A DNA stretch of 64,000 nucleotides from a virus. Every line of letters starts with the position of its first letter. The stretch's first letter is position 1. Location of the stretch: positions 62,001-126,000 of the IMG/VR virus record IMGVR_UViG_3300022744_000022, one strand, 5' to 3'. Below are positions 39,831-62,003 of this stretch, in pieces. The notes beneath the pieces were generated by a model, which was not told the DNA's origin, made no database searches, and saw only the letters and a list, made by a program, of their open reading frames with translations. Made by a program: the position numbers and the translations under genes.

Positions 39831-40796
39831 TTGGACCAAGCCCTGCACTCTGAGCGTGTAGCTCACCGCTTCCTGATCGCCTCGTTCAAGCCGGGCGACT
39901 ACATCTTGTTCGGCAAGTTCCGGAACAAGCGTGGGCGCGTGGTCCGCATCTTCAACGATGAGCGGGACATCCCGTACATCGAGATTCAGCCGGTGCCCAA
40001 GGGCCGCAAGAAGAACAGGATTTTTGGGCTCTACACGATCCGCCAGATGACCCCTGAGGCCATCCAGGAAGCGCAGCAGTTGGAGGCGGCGGAACGGGCT
40101 CTCGTCCACAAGGTGGCGGCCCGTTACCTGGAAGCCACTCAGATGCCGCCTGGGTGGGTTGAGCACAAAGGGTCTGCGGGGCGTTCCTTTTGGATCAGCC
40201 CCGACGGTAAGGCGGAGATCAGCGACACGGGTCGTAAAGGCAGCCCGCAGCGCTTCCAGGTCTTCTTTCTTCAGGACGGGAAACGGCACGAGGACATCGG
40301 CTGGCCGTCCCTCAAGAAGGCGCTCCAGTACCTGAGTGGCGAAGTGGGGTTGAGTGCCCACCCAATGGCCAAGCGGGAGGGCGGCAACCTGGAGAACTTC
40401 CTGGACGGCTTCGCACGACGGCACTCTAGGCTTGGGCGGCTTCTCCCTAAGGTCGTGGAGAAAGCTCAAGGATCCAGCTCGGGGCACGGAGAAGCTCGCC
40501 AACACGGTAACGAGATCTGGCTGTTCCCGAAGTTCTGGGACCTCGATCTCAAGACCCAAGATTTCGTACTGGCTCACGAGATCGGGCACTATGCGTTGAG
40601 TCGGAAACCCGGCACCTGGTTGATGGACCTCGGGAAAGAGCTGGGCGTTGACGTGTGGGACACGGGCAGCCTACCCTTCGGACAGTTCAATCAAGACGAG
40701 GCGTTCGCGGATTCCTTTGCTAGTTACTTCTTAGAGCCGGGTGAACTGCGGAGACGCTACCCTGCTTGGGTTACTTTCGTTGAGGCCGTCCTGTGA
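39831..40796 (+). CDS. Zincin-type protein with two RVAxRF/Y signatures
   Basis: 321 residues from TTG 39831, supported by GTGGAG five bases upstream. N-terminal SERVAHRFLIASF begins a beta-barrel-like domain; LVHKVAARYLEATQ (near 95-108) marks a boundary before a second domain. The C-terminal zincin has HEIGH in FVLAHEIGHYALS and a following DEAFADSFASYF helix with the likely third ligand. Target unknown. It overlaps the giant gene downstream. Confidence 0.72.
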   Translation: MDQALHSERVAHRFLIASFKPGDYILFGKFRNKRGRVVRIFNDERDIPYIEIQPVPKGRKKNRIFGLYTIRQMTPEAIQEAQQLEAAERALVHKVAARYLEATQMPPGWVEHKGSAGRSFWISPDGKAEISDTGRKGSPQRFQVFFLQDGKRHEDIGWPSLKKALQYLSGEVGLSAHPMAKREGGNLENFLDGFARRHSRLGRLLPKVVEKAQGSSSGHGEARQHGNEIWLFPKFWDLDLKTQDFVLAHEIGHYALSRKPGTWLMDLGKELGVDVWDTGSLPFGQFNQDEAFADSFASYFLEPGELRRRYPAWVTFVEAVL

Positions 40797-43700
40797 ACAC
40801 CATGCAAACACGATTGGTCGAACGCTTCACACGGGTAGGGGCCTACTCCGAGGACACCCTAGAGATTGTTGCGGCCGGTCTTGCTCTACTGATCGCGCAG
40901 AACTACATCGTCACCAACCCCTTCTTCGATGAGAAGGAGATCCGAAACTACCTGCTGTTGCGCAAGCAGTTTCACGGGGACTTCGTTCAAGCGTGCCTGG
41001 ACTTGGCAGACGCCTTTGAAGAGGGGCAGTTCGGTCAGGCGGTTCTACCCGCTGTCCCAGCCTTGCGGGCCATCGGGCATCTCGGGGTCAAGCAGGATCA
41101 GCAAGCAATCCGCCAACTCGCAAGAGCGTTCCGAGGGCTCAAGCACCTCAAGTACCGGGATGTCGAAAACCCGAAGCTCATGCGTCTCATCATGATGGCG
41201 CGTAAACTTGATGTCACCACCGGGGCAGATGGTAGGGACATCAAGGACTTCTTGGAGAATCTTGTTAAGATCCAGGCGGTGCCGACAAGACTCCGGACCC
41301 TTCTTCGCAAAGTCATCAAGTTGCCCGTCCCGGGCAGGACGCTCACCGAGAATGCCGATCCAGGCGCTTGGTTCGAGATGCCCGAGGACAAGAAACAAAG
41401 CCTTCGCGAGCTGACCGAGAAGGTTGAGCAAGAGCAGCTTGGGATCTGGGAGAAGTACAAAGACGCCAGTGACGATGAGCGGATGGCGGCTTACCAGAGT
41501 GCTGCCCGTCGCCTACAGAAGATTCAGAGCATCGCAGGCGTGAACCTGGGTGTTATCAAGCGTGACGATGAGGTCCCGCTTGACACGCTTTTGAAGAAGG
41601 AAACGCGACTCGAATCCGACGGACCGACGGAGTACACACGACTCAAAATTGAGGACTACCTCAAAAAGACAGGGGCGTACCGCTTCCAGCGCAAGGAAGG
41701 TGATCCGCTACCTCGTGAGGTCAGCAAGCTGCTCACATTGTTGCGCAAGGCCAAGACCTTCTCGACAATGCAGCGCGTGATCAAGGATGCTGTGGATCGT
41801 CAGGTGTTGGGCAGGGCGTCCACCGAAGATGTCGATCACATCATCACGCAAGCGAACAAGAACCGGGCGTTGAAAGAGGGGAAACCTCTCACGCCTCTAC
41901 AGTTCGAGCCTAAGAGCGTAGAGCAGTTTCAGGTGGACCACGATACGGGCCCCGTGGCGTTCGACCCTGAGTACACGGATGACGAAAAGAAGCAGTTGCT
42001 GGGTCGTGTCTCCCGTGCTTTGAGTGATCTAGAGAGTGTCTACGGAAAAGGCTTCTGTGGTAAGCATGCCAAGAAGCTCGCGTTCCGTTTCAACAAGGGG
42101 TACAGCGGGACCGCTTCCGCTCACTACTTCGTTTGGGATGACCGTCGGACGTGGCAACCCAGGGTAACGTTTGGTCCGGAGTTCGAGGGCCTCTTGGCTC
42201 ACGAACTCTCGCACTACCTGGAAGACTTGCTGGCGTACCAGATTCAGAAGCAGGACGAACCAGAGCGCATCGAGGCCCTCCTGGGTAAAGGGATCGAGGG
42301 AGGACCAGGCGTCCTGTTCTCCAACACGGGGGTGTCCCTGAGGCTCTTCGCTGAGGGTGGTGCCCTGGAGAGTTACCGAGGACACCTAAGTAAGTCGGTC
42401 CCGGAGTTCGTTGAGTTCATCGACGCCGTGCTTGCAACCCCGGACTACAAGCGCTGGGAGGACAAGCTTGGATCAGCGTACGACACCGCACTGCCCATGG
42501 CCATCAAGGCGCTGACAGGGATGAGCTACTACGACTTGCCCAAAGAGCACCCGTACTACGGTTTGATCGACAAGGCGCAATACCGCTCGGACCTGCCCCC
42601 GGAAGTGAACGACGAGACTCAGAAGCAGTTCAAGAACCTGATGGATGGGGATGGGCGCAAGCTCAACTACTACAACAGCTCCACCGAGGTCTGGGCCCGG
42701 ATGTGCGAGCAGTACGTGTACAACCGGCTGATCGATGCGGGGATCTCGAACCCCTGGCTCACACAGATGAACTACGAGGAAGATGTCTTCATGAACGAGA
42801 AGACCTTCGATACGCAGTTACGTCCGATTATGGACAAGATCTTCGCCAAGCTGAAAGGCCGCAAACTCATTGCCAGTGTGCCCATGAGCCCCTTGCGTGA
42901 ACGTCTGGCAGACCGCTTCTTGCTCATCAATCGGGTAGCTGCTCGTTACAAAGAGAAGAAGCAGGTAAAGTCGGAGGACGGCGGCAAGACTACCGTCTAC
43001 GTCTACTCTGAGCGGCAGATCGCCAATCGGAACAAGGCGAAGGCTGAGCGAGTCCAAAAGCTCAGCGGCGCTATCAAGAAGCTGAGGGCCAAGGTCAAGA
43101 AGGACTTGGGGTCCAAGGATCCTGAGACGGCTCGTACAGCACTCGCGGTGGCCCTCATGGATCATACCTATGAGCGAGTTGGCAACGAGAGTTCTGCCAA
43201 GGACGGGCACTTCGGGGTCACGGGGTGGCAGCGTAAGCACGTGAGCTTCGGCAAGGACGGGGCGTTCATCAAGTACGTGGGCAAGTCCGGGGTCAAGCAC
43301 GAGAAGAAGGTCACGGACTCGGCGATCCGTAGTGCGTTGAAGGCTGCTTACGACTCCCTGGAAGGTGATGACACGGGCGTTCTGGAGTGGGACGGGGGCA
43401 AGGTCACGGCCGAGAAGGTGAACCAGTACCTGGAGCCCTTTGACGTTACGGCCAAGGACATCCGTGGCTTCCACGCCAACGACCAGATGCGGGTCAACCT
43501 CAAGAGCGTGCGCTCGAAGGGCGGCTCGCTTCCTGAGGACAAGAAGAAGCGTGAGGACAAGCTCAAGAAGGAGTTCGCGGAAGCTCTTGAAGCGACCGCA
43601 GAGTGCGTGGGGCACGAGGCCGCTACACTCAAGAATCAGTACCTTGTCCCCGGCCTAGAGGACTCGTTTCTCAAGGATGGGACGGTCATCGACAAGCTCG

Positions 43701-43906
43701 GGAGCCAACACGAAGACGAGATCCCCGGCGGCTTGGCGGACAAGAAAAAGCCAAGCGACTTTGACCCCAAGCAACTCGCCAAGGGAATCAAGGTCGAGCT
43801 GGAGCACACCGATGATCGAAATCTCGCGCAAGAGATCTCGATGGATCACTTGACCGAAGATCCGGATTACTACAGCAAGCTTGAGAAGATGGAGTCGGAA
43901 AAATGA
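40793..43906 (+). CDS. Giant fusion: zincin, type IB topoisomerase and DUF5661
   Basis: 1037 residues from GTG 40793 (ATG 40802 possible). Residues 1-460 are helical; HELSH (470-474) marks a zincin domain reaching to about 700. The signature RLADRFLLINRVAARY (704-719) leads into a topoisomerase IB catalytic domain with R795 (YERVGNE), K831 (GKSG), R891 (DIRGF), H941 and Tyr950 as nucleophile; H-to-Y spacing of nine matches the vaccinia enzyme. Residues 998-1037 (KVELEHTDDRNLA...DHLTEDPDYY) match DUF5661. The topoisomerase part would relax supercoils; the protease-like part may process this or other virion proteins. Confidence 0.85.
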   Translation: MNTMQTRLVERFTRVGAYSEDTLEIVAAGLALLIAQNYIVTNPFFDEKEIRNYLLLRKQFHGDFVQACLDLADAFEEGQFGQAVLPAVPALRAIGHLGVKQDQQAIRQLARAFRGLKHLKYRDVENPKLMRLIMMARKLDVTTGADGRDIKDFLENLVKIQAVPTRLRTLLRKVIKLPVPGRTLTENADPGAWFEMPEDKKQSLRELTEKVEQEQLGIWEKYKDASDDERMAAYQSAARRLQKIQSIAGVNLGVIKRDDEVPLDTLLKKETRLESDGPTEYTRLKIEDYLKKTGAYRFQRKEGDPLPREVSKLLTLLRKAKTFSTMQRVIKDAVDRQVLGRASTEDVDHIITQANKNRALKEGKPLTPLQFEPKSVEQFQVDHDTGPVAFDPEYTDDEKKQLLGRVSRALSDLESVYGKGFCGKHAKKLAFRFNKGYSGTASAHYFVWDDRRTWQPRVTFGPEFEGLLAHELSHYLEDLLAYQIQKQDEPERIEALLGKGIEGGPGVLFSNTGVSLRLFAEGGALESYRGHLSKSVPEFVEFIDAVLATPDYKRWEDKLGSAYDTALPMAIKALTGMSYYDLPKEHPYYGLIDKAQYRSDLPPEVNDETQKQFKNLMDGDGRKLNYYNSSTEVWARMCEQYVYNRLIDAGISNPWLTQMNYEEDVFMNEKTFDTQLRPIMDKIFAKLKGRKLIASVPMSPLRERLADRFLLINRVAARYKEKKQVKSEDGGKTTVYVYSERQIANRNKAKAERVQKLSGAIKKLRAKVKKDLGSKDPETARTALAVALMDHTYERVGNESSAKDGHFGVTGWQRKHVSFGKDGAFIKYVGKSGVKHEKKVTDSAIRSALKAAYDSLEGDDTGVLEWDGGKVTAEKVNQYLEPFDVTAKDIRGFHANDQMRVNLKSVRSKGGSLPEDKKKREDKLKKEFAEALEATAECVGHEAATLKNQYLVPGLEDSFLKDGTVIDKLGSQHEDEIPGGLADKKKPSDFDPKQLAKGIKVELEHTDDRNLAQEISMDHLTEDPDYYSKLEKMESEK

Positions 43907-61286: not shown

Positions 61287-62003
61287 ATGTTGCTCGGAAT
61301 TTCTGGTTTCGCGGGTTCAGGAAAAGACGCGGCGGCGAACTTCCTGGTTGAGGATCACGGCTTCACCAAGGTTGCGCTCGCAGACCCCTTGAAGCGCATA
61401 GCCCGCGACGTGTATGCCTTCACAGACGAACAGCTCTGGGGGCCGAGTCAGTTCCGCAACACTCCCGACAAACGGTATCCGAGGCCCTGCAAGACTTGCC
61501 GTGGGCAAGGGGACCGCGTAGATGCCGATGGGGCGTTCGAGCCCTGCCTGGGGTGCCACGGGGCTCGGGTCACGCACCTGACGCCTCGTGAGGCTCTCCA
61601 GAAGCTCGGGACCGAGTGGGGCCGCGAGTGCTACCCAGACACGTGGGTTGACCTTTGCATCCGAACCTCAGCCCACTTGCTGGACAACATCTACGCCCGT
61701 TACGATCAACAACGCGGGGCGTACCAAGCGATGGTGGATACCCAGAGCGCCCTCAACTACCGGATCAAGGGTGTCGCAGTCCCAGATGTACGGTTCCTCA
61801 ACGAGATCCGAGCCATCAAACAAGCGGGCGGTAAGGTGATCAGGATCTCGCGTCCTGGGGCTGGGCTCGACGGTGCGGGTGCTCTCCATGTGTCCGAGAC
61901 AGAGCAGGCCGGGTTACCCGACTCGATGTTCGATGCTGTGATCCAGAACACGGGGACCCTCGAAGACCTGAGGGCTGCGGTTCAAGCGTTCCTCAGCGAT
62001 TAA
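61287..62003 (+). CDS. Deoxynucleoside monophosphate kinase-like with zinc insertion
   Basis: 238 residues. P-loop GFAGSGKD (7-14), LADPLKRIAR and the late DVRFLNE and VIRISRPG segments fit phage dNMP kinases. Between P-loop and lid sits an extra CKTCRGQG...CLGCHG segment (about 68-92), a DnaJ-type CxxCxGxG zinc element unusual for this fold. The enzyme would charge dNMPs, including modified ones, for replication. Confidence 0.83.
   Translation: MLLGISGFAGSGKDAAANFLVEDHGFTKVALADPLKRIARDVYAFTDEQLWGPSQFRNTPDKRYPRPCKTCRGQGDRVDADGAFEPCLGCHGARVTHLTPREALQKLGTEWGRECYPDTWVDLCIRTSAHLLDNIYARYDQQRGAYQAMVDTQSALNYRIKGVAVPDVRFLNEIRAIKQAGGKVIRISRPGAGLDGAGALHVSETEQAGLPDSMFDAVIQNTGTLEDLRAAVQAFLSD

Follow-up and report, generated by a model that had tools for sequence, protein, structure and literature searches.

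A recurrent peptide tag joins a putative zincin to a type IB topoisomerase in huge phages and may mark virion-carried effectors

Why a single phage polypeptide should carry both an HExxH protease-like region and a type IB topoisomerase (TopIB), and what the peptide RVAARY is doing between them, are the questions raised by an open reading frame (ORF) at positions 40793 to 43906 of the window analyzed here. The window is the whole 64,000-nucleotide stretch covering positions 62,001 to 126,000 of IMG/VR virus record IMGVR_UViG_3300022744_000022, a viral record of 208 kb that is possibly partial. A host search in genome collections gave just two metagenome-assembled matches, which are probably binned phage. 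The original prediction described the protein as a distinctive zincin-TopIB-DUF5661 enzyme in which RVAARY looked like a processing or targeting site. Comparison with related loci indicates that the peptide is a recurrent tag found at protein ends and domain junctions, that modules have been exchanged at it, and that it may serve to sort proteins into the virion.

An intact fusion that includes a type IB topoisomerase

Translation of the ORF gave 1037 amino acids with zero internal stops, beginning at a GTG codon that overlaps the upstream stop by 4 nt. Two viral metagenomic contigs of huge phages, L002 (955 amino acids) and L003 (1061 amino acids), also encode the zincin-topoisomerase polypeptide in one open frame, and a frameshift or assembly artefact is therefore ruled out. 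The parts of the protein are as follows.

40793..43906, + strand: complete ORF, 1037 aa; tag, zincin/LPD1, tandem tag, type IB topoisomerase, DUF5661
40811..40828, + strand: tag copy RLVERF near the N-terminus, residues 7-12; counterparts RVAERF (L003) and NVVGRYLTA (L002)
41978..42862, + strand: zincin-like metallopeptidase region, ~residues 396-690, with HELSH at 42200-42214; putative fold, low-confidence model
42656..42856, + strand: LPD1 (PF18796), residues 622-688; Pfam E 1e-7
42884..42949, + strand: junction MSPLRERLADRFLLINRVAARY, residues 698-719, with tandem tags RLADRF (42902-42919) and RVAARY (42932-42949)
42950..43699, + strand: type IB topoisomerase module, ~residues 720-969; assigned from Pfam, PDB search and AlphaFold2 model
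43175, 43283, 43463, 43613 and 43640, + strand: catalytic codons for R795, K831, R891, H941 and Y950, respectively
43769..43897, + strand: DUF5661 (PF18905), residues 993-1035; Pfam E 4e-12

The identity of the topoisomerase module was supported by sequence and by structure prediction. Pfam matched Topoisom_I at residues 744-948 (E 1.2e-22), and a sequence search of the PDB matched variola TopIB across residues 731-985 (E 2e-10). An AlphaFold2 model of the module, built from four sequences, had a predicted local distance difference test (pLDDT) score of 80 and recovered the TopIB fold. In Foldseek searches with this model, variola, Deinococcus, and human TopIB were matched at E values of 1e-11 to 1e-8, and Leishmania TopIB was also matched, whereas tyrosine recombinases were many orders of magnitude poorer (XerH recombinases, 3e-3, versus 1e-11 for variola TopIB). 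The five catalytic residues were where they had been predicted, the R-K-R-H-Y pentad is correct in order and spacing, and none of the five varies across 23 aligned sequences. Thus, by its predicted fold and active-site residues, the module is a type IB topoisomerase, and it would be expected to relax DNA.

The zincin-like part is less well defined. HELSH, predicted at residues 470-474, is present there and is invariant among zincin homologues, as is H444, which lies on the second strand of a pair that precedes it. E632 and E639, two invariant residues that are candidates for the third zinc ligand, are in a later helix (residues 630-648) inside LPD1, a domain that the original prediction did not include. 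The whole-protein AlphaFold model (mean pLDDT 59) is poor outside the topoisomerase; it places HELSH on a helix (residues 465-488) after strands 429-435 and 441-447 with low pLDDT, and it is too poor for distances to the glutamates to be measured. This order of strands, HExxH helix, and later glutamate helix fits the metallopeptidase (MPTase) core of polyvalent phage proteins (PMC5512222). A profile of the region had no match in the PDB, similarity to other phage zincins was local to HExxH, and shared ancestry of the differing HExxH partners described below was not detectable by comparison. The zincin fold of residues ~396-690 is thus putative, suggested by HExxH, the order of helices and strands, and LPD1, and the region may be proteolytic.

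The DUF5661 tail was also found as predicted, but it is missing from both L002 and L003 and so falls outside the common architecture. Each of LPD1 and DUF5661 was found in just 3 of 20 related records, which ruled them out as common parts of the system. No match at E ≤1 was obtained for the 1037-residue ORF in a search of PHROGs.

A tag that recurs at protein ends and junctions

RVAARY occupies residues 714-719, exactly between the protease-like and topoisomerase parts, as had been predicted. Two diverged copies were absent from the original prediction: RLADRF (residues 704-709), in tandem with RVAARY, and RLVERF (residues 7-12), both recognized through their counterparts in L003 and L002. Alignment of 79 distinct tag instances gave the consensus L-x-x-R-V-A-A-R-[YF]-L-x-A-K, and the core, R-V-A-x-R-[YF]-L-x-A, is at the module junction in most fused topoisomerases.

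The tag is much more frequent than expected by chance. A relaxed form of RVAxRY was present in 10 copies in this genome versus 1.6 in shuffled proteins, in 9 copies in G018 versus 1.5 expected, and in 57 copies in the flanks of related loci versus 2.3 in shuffled and 1 in reversed proteins. The regular expression was picked after examples had been seen, a bias limited by these controls and by the core-seeded collection described below. Placement was equally nonrandom: 25 tags lay in the first 30 residues (N-terminal), 11 lay in the last 30 (C-terminal), and another 30 were internal, compared with 0.28, 0.36, and 2.62 in shuffles, with the qualification that gene calls were mechanical, that distances from starts depend on predicted start codons, and that all relatives are metagenomic. 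Several proteins have three copies.

A first scan for related loci returned 31, with seeds that were partly the tag itself. The scan was repeated with a motif-free topoisomerase core, which recovered 80 loci from at least 67 distinct viral contigs. A strict tag was found no more than 60 residues upstream of the core in 43 of these 67 and a looser form in 10, compared with 2.9% of control 60-residue windows from the same ORFs; several of the remaining 14 carry degenerate tags, such as RVLAKYKAKK. This repeat argues against the enrichment being a search artefact.

Synonymous codons vary freely at every tag position, so selection acts at the level of the peptide, and the possibility that the tag is a DNA element or recombination site was ruled out on the same grounds. 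Hydrophobic positions -2, 2, 6, and 9 recur every 3 to 4 residues, a periodicity that suggests an amphipathic helix. A literature search for RVAARY returned no match, which is a weak test.

Other proteins encoded in this genome also carry the tag. A SprT-like zincin on the minus strand (G000 134984-135703; L010:8984-9703) has one at each end, and a zeta-toxin-like kinase (G000 155331-157160; L011:9331-11160) has two. In L034, tandem AAAKY repeats (AAAKYAAAKYAAAKYAAAKYKEKK) at about residues 365-385 of the fused ORF directly precede the topoisomerase; apparently, the end of the tag was duplicated locally.

Modules are exchanged at the tag

The combination that drew attention to this locus proved to be one of many. 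Among the 67 distinct topoisomerases, about 25 are stand-alone on the N-terminal side, tagged forms being common, and about 42 are fused behind varied partners in ORFs of up to ~2800 residues, with an HExxH motif somewhere in 14 of the 42. N-terminal partners in the fused set include 2'-5' RNA ligase/2H (9 ORFs), polyA/CCA polymerase (7), HAD_SAK (4), and PAP2 (4), along with InPase, NUDIX, phosphoribosyltransferase, KOW, and unrelated HExxH proteins; C-terminal partners include RNA ligase, tRNA-ligase CPD, InPase, and GNAT. The zincin is therefore a swappable partner, and the description of the fusion as a distinctive enzyme was not borne out.

Partners in L029-L047 and L081-L148 are mostly RNA-repair or nucleotide enzymes. 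The set resembles a tRNA-repair kit, and this theme suggests that such proteins might protect against tRNA-cutting defences.

The modules on the two sides of the tag have different histories. The zincin of the window protein is 85% identical to that of L003 and the topoisomerase 55%, whereas for L002 the values are 63% and 73%, and the shift in identity is located at the junction. In a tree, the topoisomerases of the window, L002, and L018 cluster at 100/98, and that of L003 falls elsewhere. L018 has no zincin; a KOW module is joined through VVERYL straight to its topoisomerase. This KOW module stands alone as a 91-amino-acid protein in L002 and, in the gene upstream of the window ORF, is joined through KVAARYLEA to an M78-like HEIGH part. 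A HAD protein with a C-terminal tag is similarly its own gene next to a 2H-tag-topoisomerase gene in L040 and L045, part of a HAD-tag-2H-tag-topoisomerase protein in L046, and part of a HAD-tag-topoisomerase protein in L033 and L043. Modules have thus been exchanged at the tag. An ATG codon lies ahead of the junction in both L003, where it has an upstream AGGAG, and the window, where it lacks such a ribosome-binding sequence; this methionine resembles the start of a topoisomerase gene that was once separate.

The upstream gene mentioned above gives the window two zincin-like proteins side by side:

39831..40796, + strand: tag RVAHRF (39855), KOW-like part, tag KVAARYLEA (40110), M78/ImmA-like HEIGH part; M78 match weak

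Another recurrent element, about 50 residues long, was also observed. It has the consensus ATKTxxEKEDEExERLVKPSPKKKPPRxDLRRxRxxxDPDxxxDKDLSxNYK, comes after the topoisomerase in many fusions (L030, L038, L040, L047, L117, and others), and often has an RVA-type tag behind it. Separate proteins near the portal gene also open with this element (ORFs L019:9937, L028:8912, and L036:7370). Nearly all of 45 matches to KPPRxD belonged to it, and none was found in the window.

Potential role of the tag

The gene neighborhoods of several relatives point to the virion. In five loci (L004, L019, L028, L040, and G018), the topoisomerase gene adjoins terminase and portal genes and lies ahead of the gene for the head-maturation protease where the stretch reaches that far, and in G018 ahead of the gene for the major head protein as well. 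The tag was not found in the portal, terminase, and head protease proteins examined or in the major head protein of G018. Since these core head proteins are untagged, the tag is not evidently a head-maturation cleavage site, and that candidate is not favored.

The favored explanation, to which we give about an even chance when all of its parts are taken jointly, is that the protein is an in-frame fusion of two separately tagged modules, a zincin-like one with LPD1 and a complete TopIB, plus the DUF5661 tail, and that the tag is a modular sorting or capsid-targeting tag on virion-carried "polyvalent" effectors that have been fused tag to tag. The tag would fold as an amphipathic helix and dock the protein within the prohead, by analogy with the capsid-targeting sequences of T4 or P1. 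The effectors would be packaged along with the DNA and enter the host together with it. There, the topoisomerase could act on incoming or early-replicating DNA by relaxing or untangling it, and the zincin could trim the polyprotein or attack host proteins.

Several observations weigh against this explanation. Some of the match at the junction (Y-K-x-K-K) comes from the first strand of the topoisomerase itself, and the zincin fold has a poor model and no relative in the PDB detected by sequence. In the window phage, the gene is near those for a DHH phosphoesterase and a D12 methylase, outside any recognized head cluster; portal, head-protease, and terminase profiles matched nothing in this possibly partial record, but two of these searches matched no control either and are uninformative. 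Known capsid-targeting sequences are N-terminal, whereas the tag is also internal and C-terminal.

The tag might instead be a protease recognition site at which the fusion is cut, at or near residues 704-719, by its own zincin, the head protease, or a host protease, so that the topoisomerase is freed with an almost native N-terminus. Stand-alone topoisomerases do start with the same tag, 5 to 15 residues from the start, and in the model the tag is within a low-confidence, probably flexible stretch between modules. Self-processing has been proposed for polyvalent zincins (PMC5512222), and head proteins of giant phages are extensively cut (PMC5694885). However, a cut in unfused proteins with the tag at the extreme C-terminus would free almost nothing, the HExxH motif is missing from many tagged topoisomerase polypeptides, and the head proteins examined are untagged. 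The conserved L-2, V2, and Y/F6 resemble one face of a helix and not a scissile pair. Given that proteins can also end in a tag and that many carriers lack a protease motif, cleavage is less favored and seems unlikely. The proposal that RVAARY has a processing or targeting role therefore holds in general terms, given its nonrandom recurrence at protein ends and junctions, with targeting fitting at least as well as cleavage.

Similarly improbable is an interaction helix of another kind, docking the proteins to a replication or phage-nucleus-like compartment, so that they act after expression in the cell and not from the virion. Replication, too, could benefit from a topoisomerase and RNA-repair enzymes, and in the window and L018/L020 the gene is among nucleotide and DNA-modification genes, not head genes. 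In several relatives, however, the portal and head protease genes flank the tagged genes, and zincin and LPD parts characterize proteins for which injection has been proposed (PMC5512222). Least probable, in our assessment, is a plain fusion of neighboring tagged genes through loss of a stop codon, with the internal tag a relic without function. The methionine retained just ahead of the junction in the window and L003, with AGGAG upstream in L003, and the coexistence of fused and separate arrangements are consistent with such a history; a relic would not be expected to stay recognizable, as the tag does, in most of the fused proteins across a varied collection, and the three copies in several proteins also argue against it.

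A broader claim falls a little short of even odds in our judgment: in a group of huge phages, RVAxR[YF]LxA would be a new tag for packaging and/or processing, independent of position, that marks and links a set of virion-carried proteins, and these would be shuffled through recombination at the tag and delivered along with the genome. Besides topoisomerase IB and several zincins, the set would include a kit for tRNA/RNA repair made up of a CCA-type polymerase, RNA ligase, 2H phosphoesterase, and HAD phosphatase. Should the tag be a packaging signal, any tagged gene of these uncultured huge phages would be predicted to act in the opening minutes of infection, and dozens of unannotated proteins would become a testable list of injected effectors.

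Comparison with known systems

Close counterparts in architecture are the polyvalent phage proteins, in which a zincin-like MPTase is combined with LPD domains (Iyer et al. 2017, PMC5512222). The 1037-residue protein shares with them several unrelated enzymatic domains on one phage-encoded polypeptide, a putative zincin as hub, and LPD1, and by this architecture it is a phage polyvalent protein, which may likewise reach the host; delivery of polyvalent proteins with the DNA is itself a proposal. Unlike the situation here, the main text of that study mentions neither a TopIB domain nor a recurrent linker or terminal tag.

Short peptides are known to direct proteins into phage heads. The first 30 residues of P1 DarB suffice to package a reporter (PMC9024508), and T4 propeptides are 10 to 20 residues long, those of SPN3US being longer (PMC5694885). 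The tag resembles these signals on virion-packaged effectors (T4 internal proteins, Alt, P1 DarB, and SPN3US/phiKZ propeptides) in being short and, in some relatives, near head genes. The known signals are N-terminal and, in T4, are removed by the head protease, and the tag was not classed as a T4-type capsid-targeting sequence because its copies are N-terminal (25), C-terminal (11), and internal (30). If it does have the targeting role suggested here, it would be a sorting tag that functions at either end of a protein or between domains, unlike the N-terminal signals of T4 and P1.

Topoisomerases I of the tyrosine-recombinase fold are known in the jumbo phages RSL1, Lu11, PaBG, Motura, and NCTB (PMC7824862). 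No zincin fusion is described for them (PMC7824862), in contrast to the window protein. Xanthomonas phage PhiXhv-15 (L005/L068), a cultured jumbo phage, also has a TopIB (XYR93271), which is ~30% identical and not RVAARY-tagged. A gene for a SprT-like zincin (XYR93270) is directly upstream of it, a separate-gene counterpart of the fusion. PhiXhv-15 was considered as a cultured model of the tag and rejected; inspection by eye of the proteins near its topoisomerase showed no recurrent N-terminal motif.

The closest solved structure is that of the poxvirus (variola/vaccinia) TopIB, which has the same catalytic pentad as the window module but is stand-alone, untagged, and only ~20% identical to it. 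The poxvirus enzyme is carried in the virion. If the phage TopIB is also carried in the virion, it would parallel the poxvirus enzyme and would be relevant to the handling of very long phage DNA at entry.

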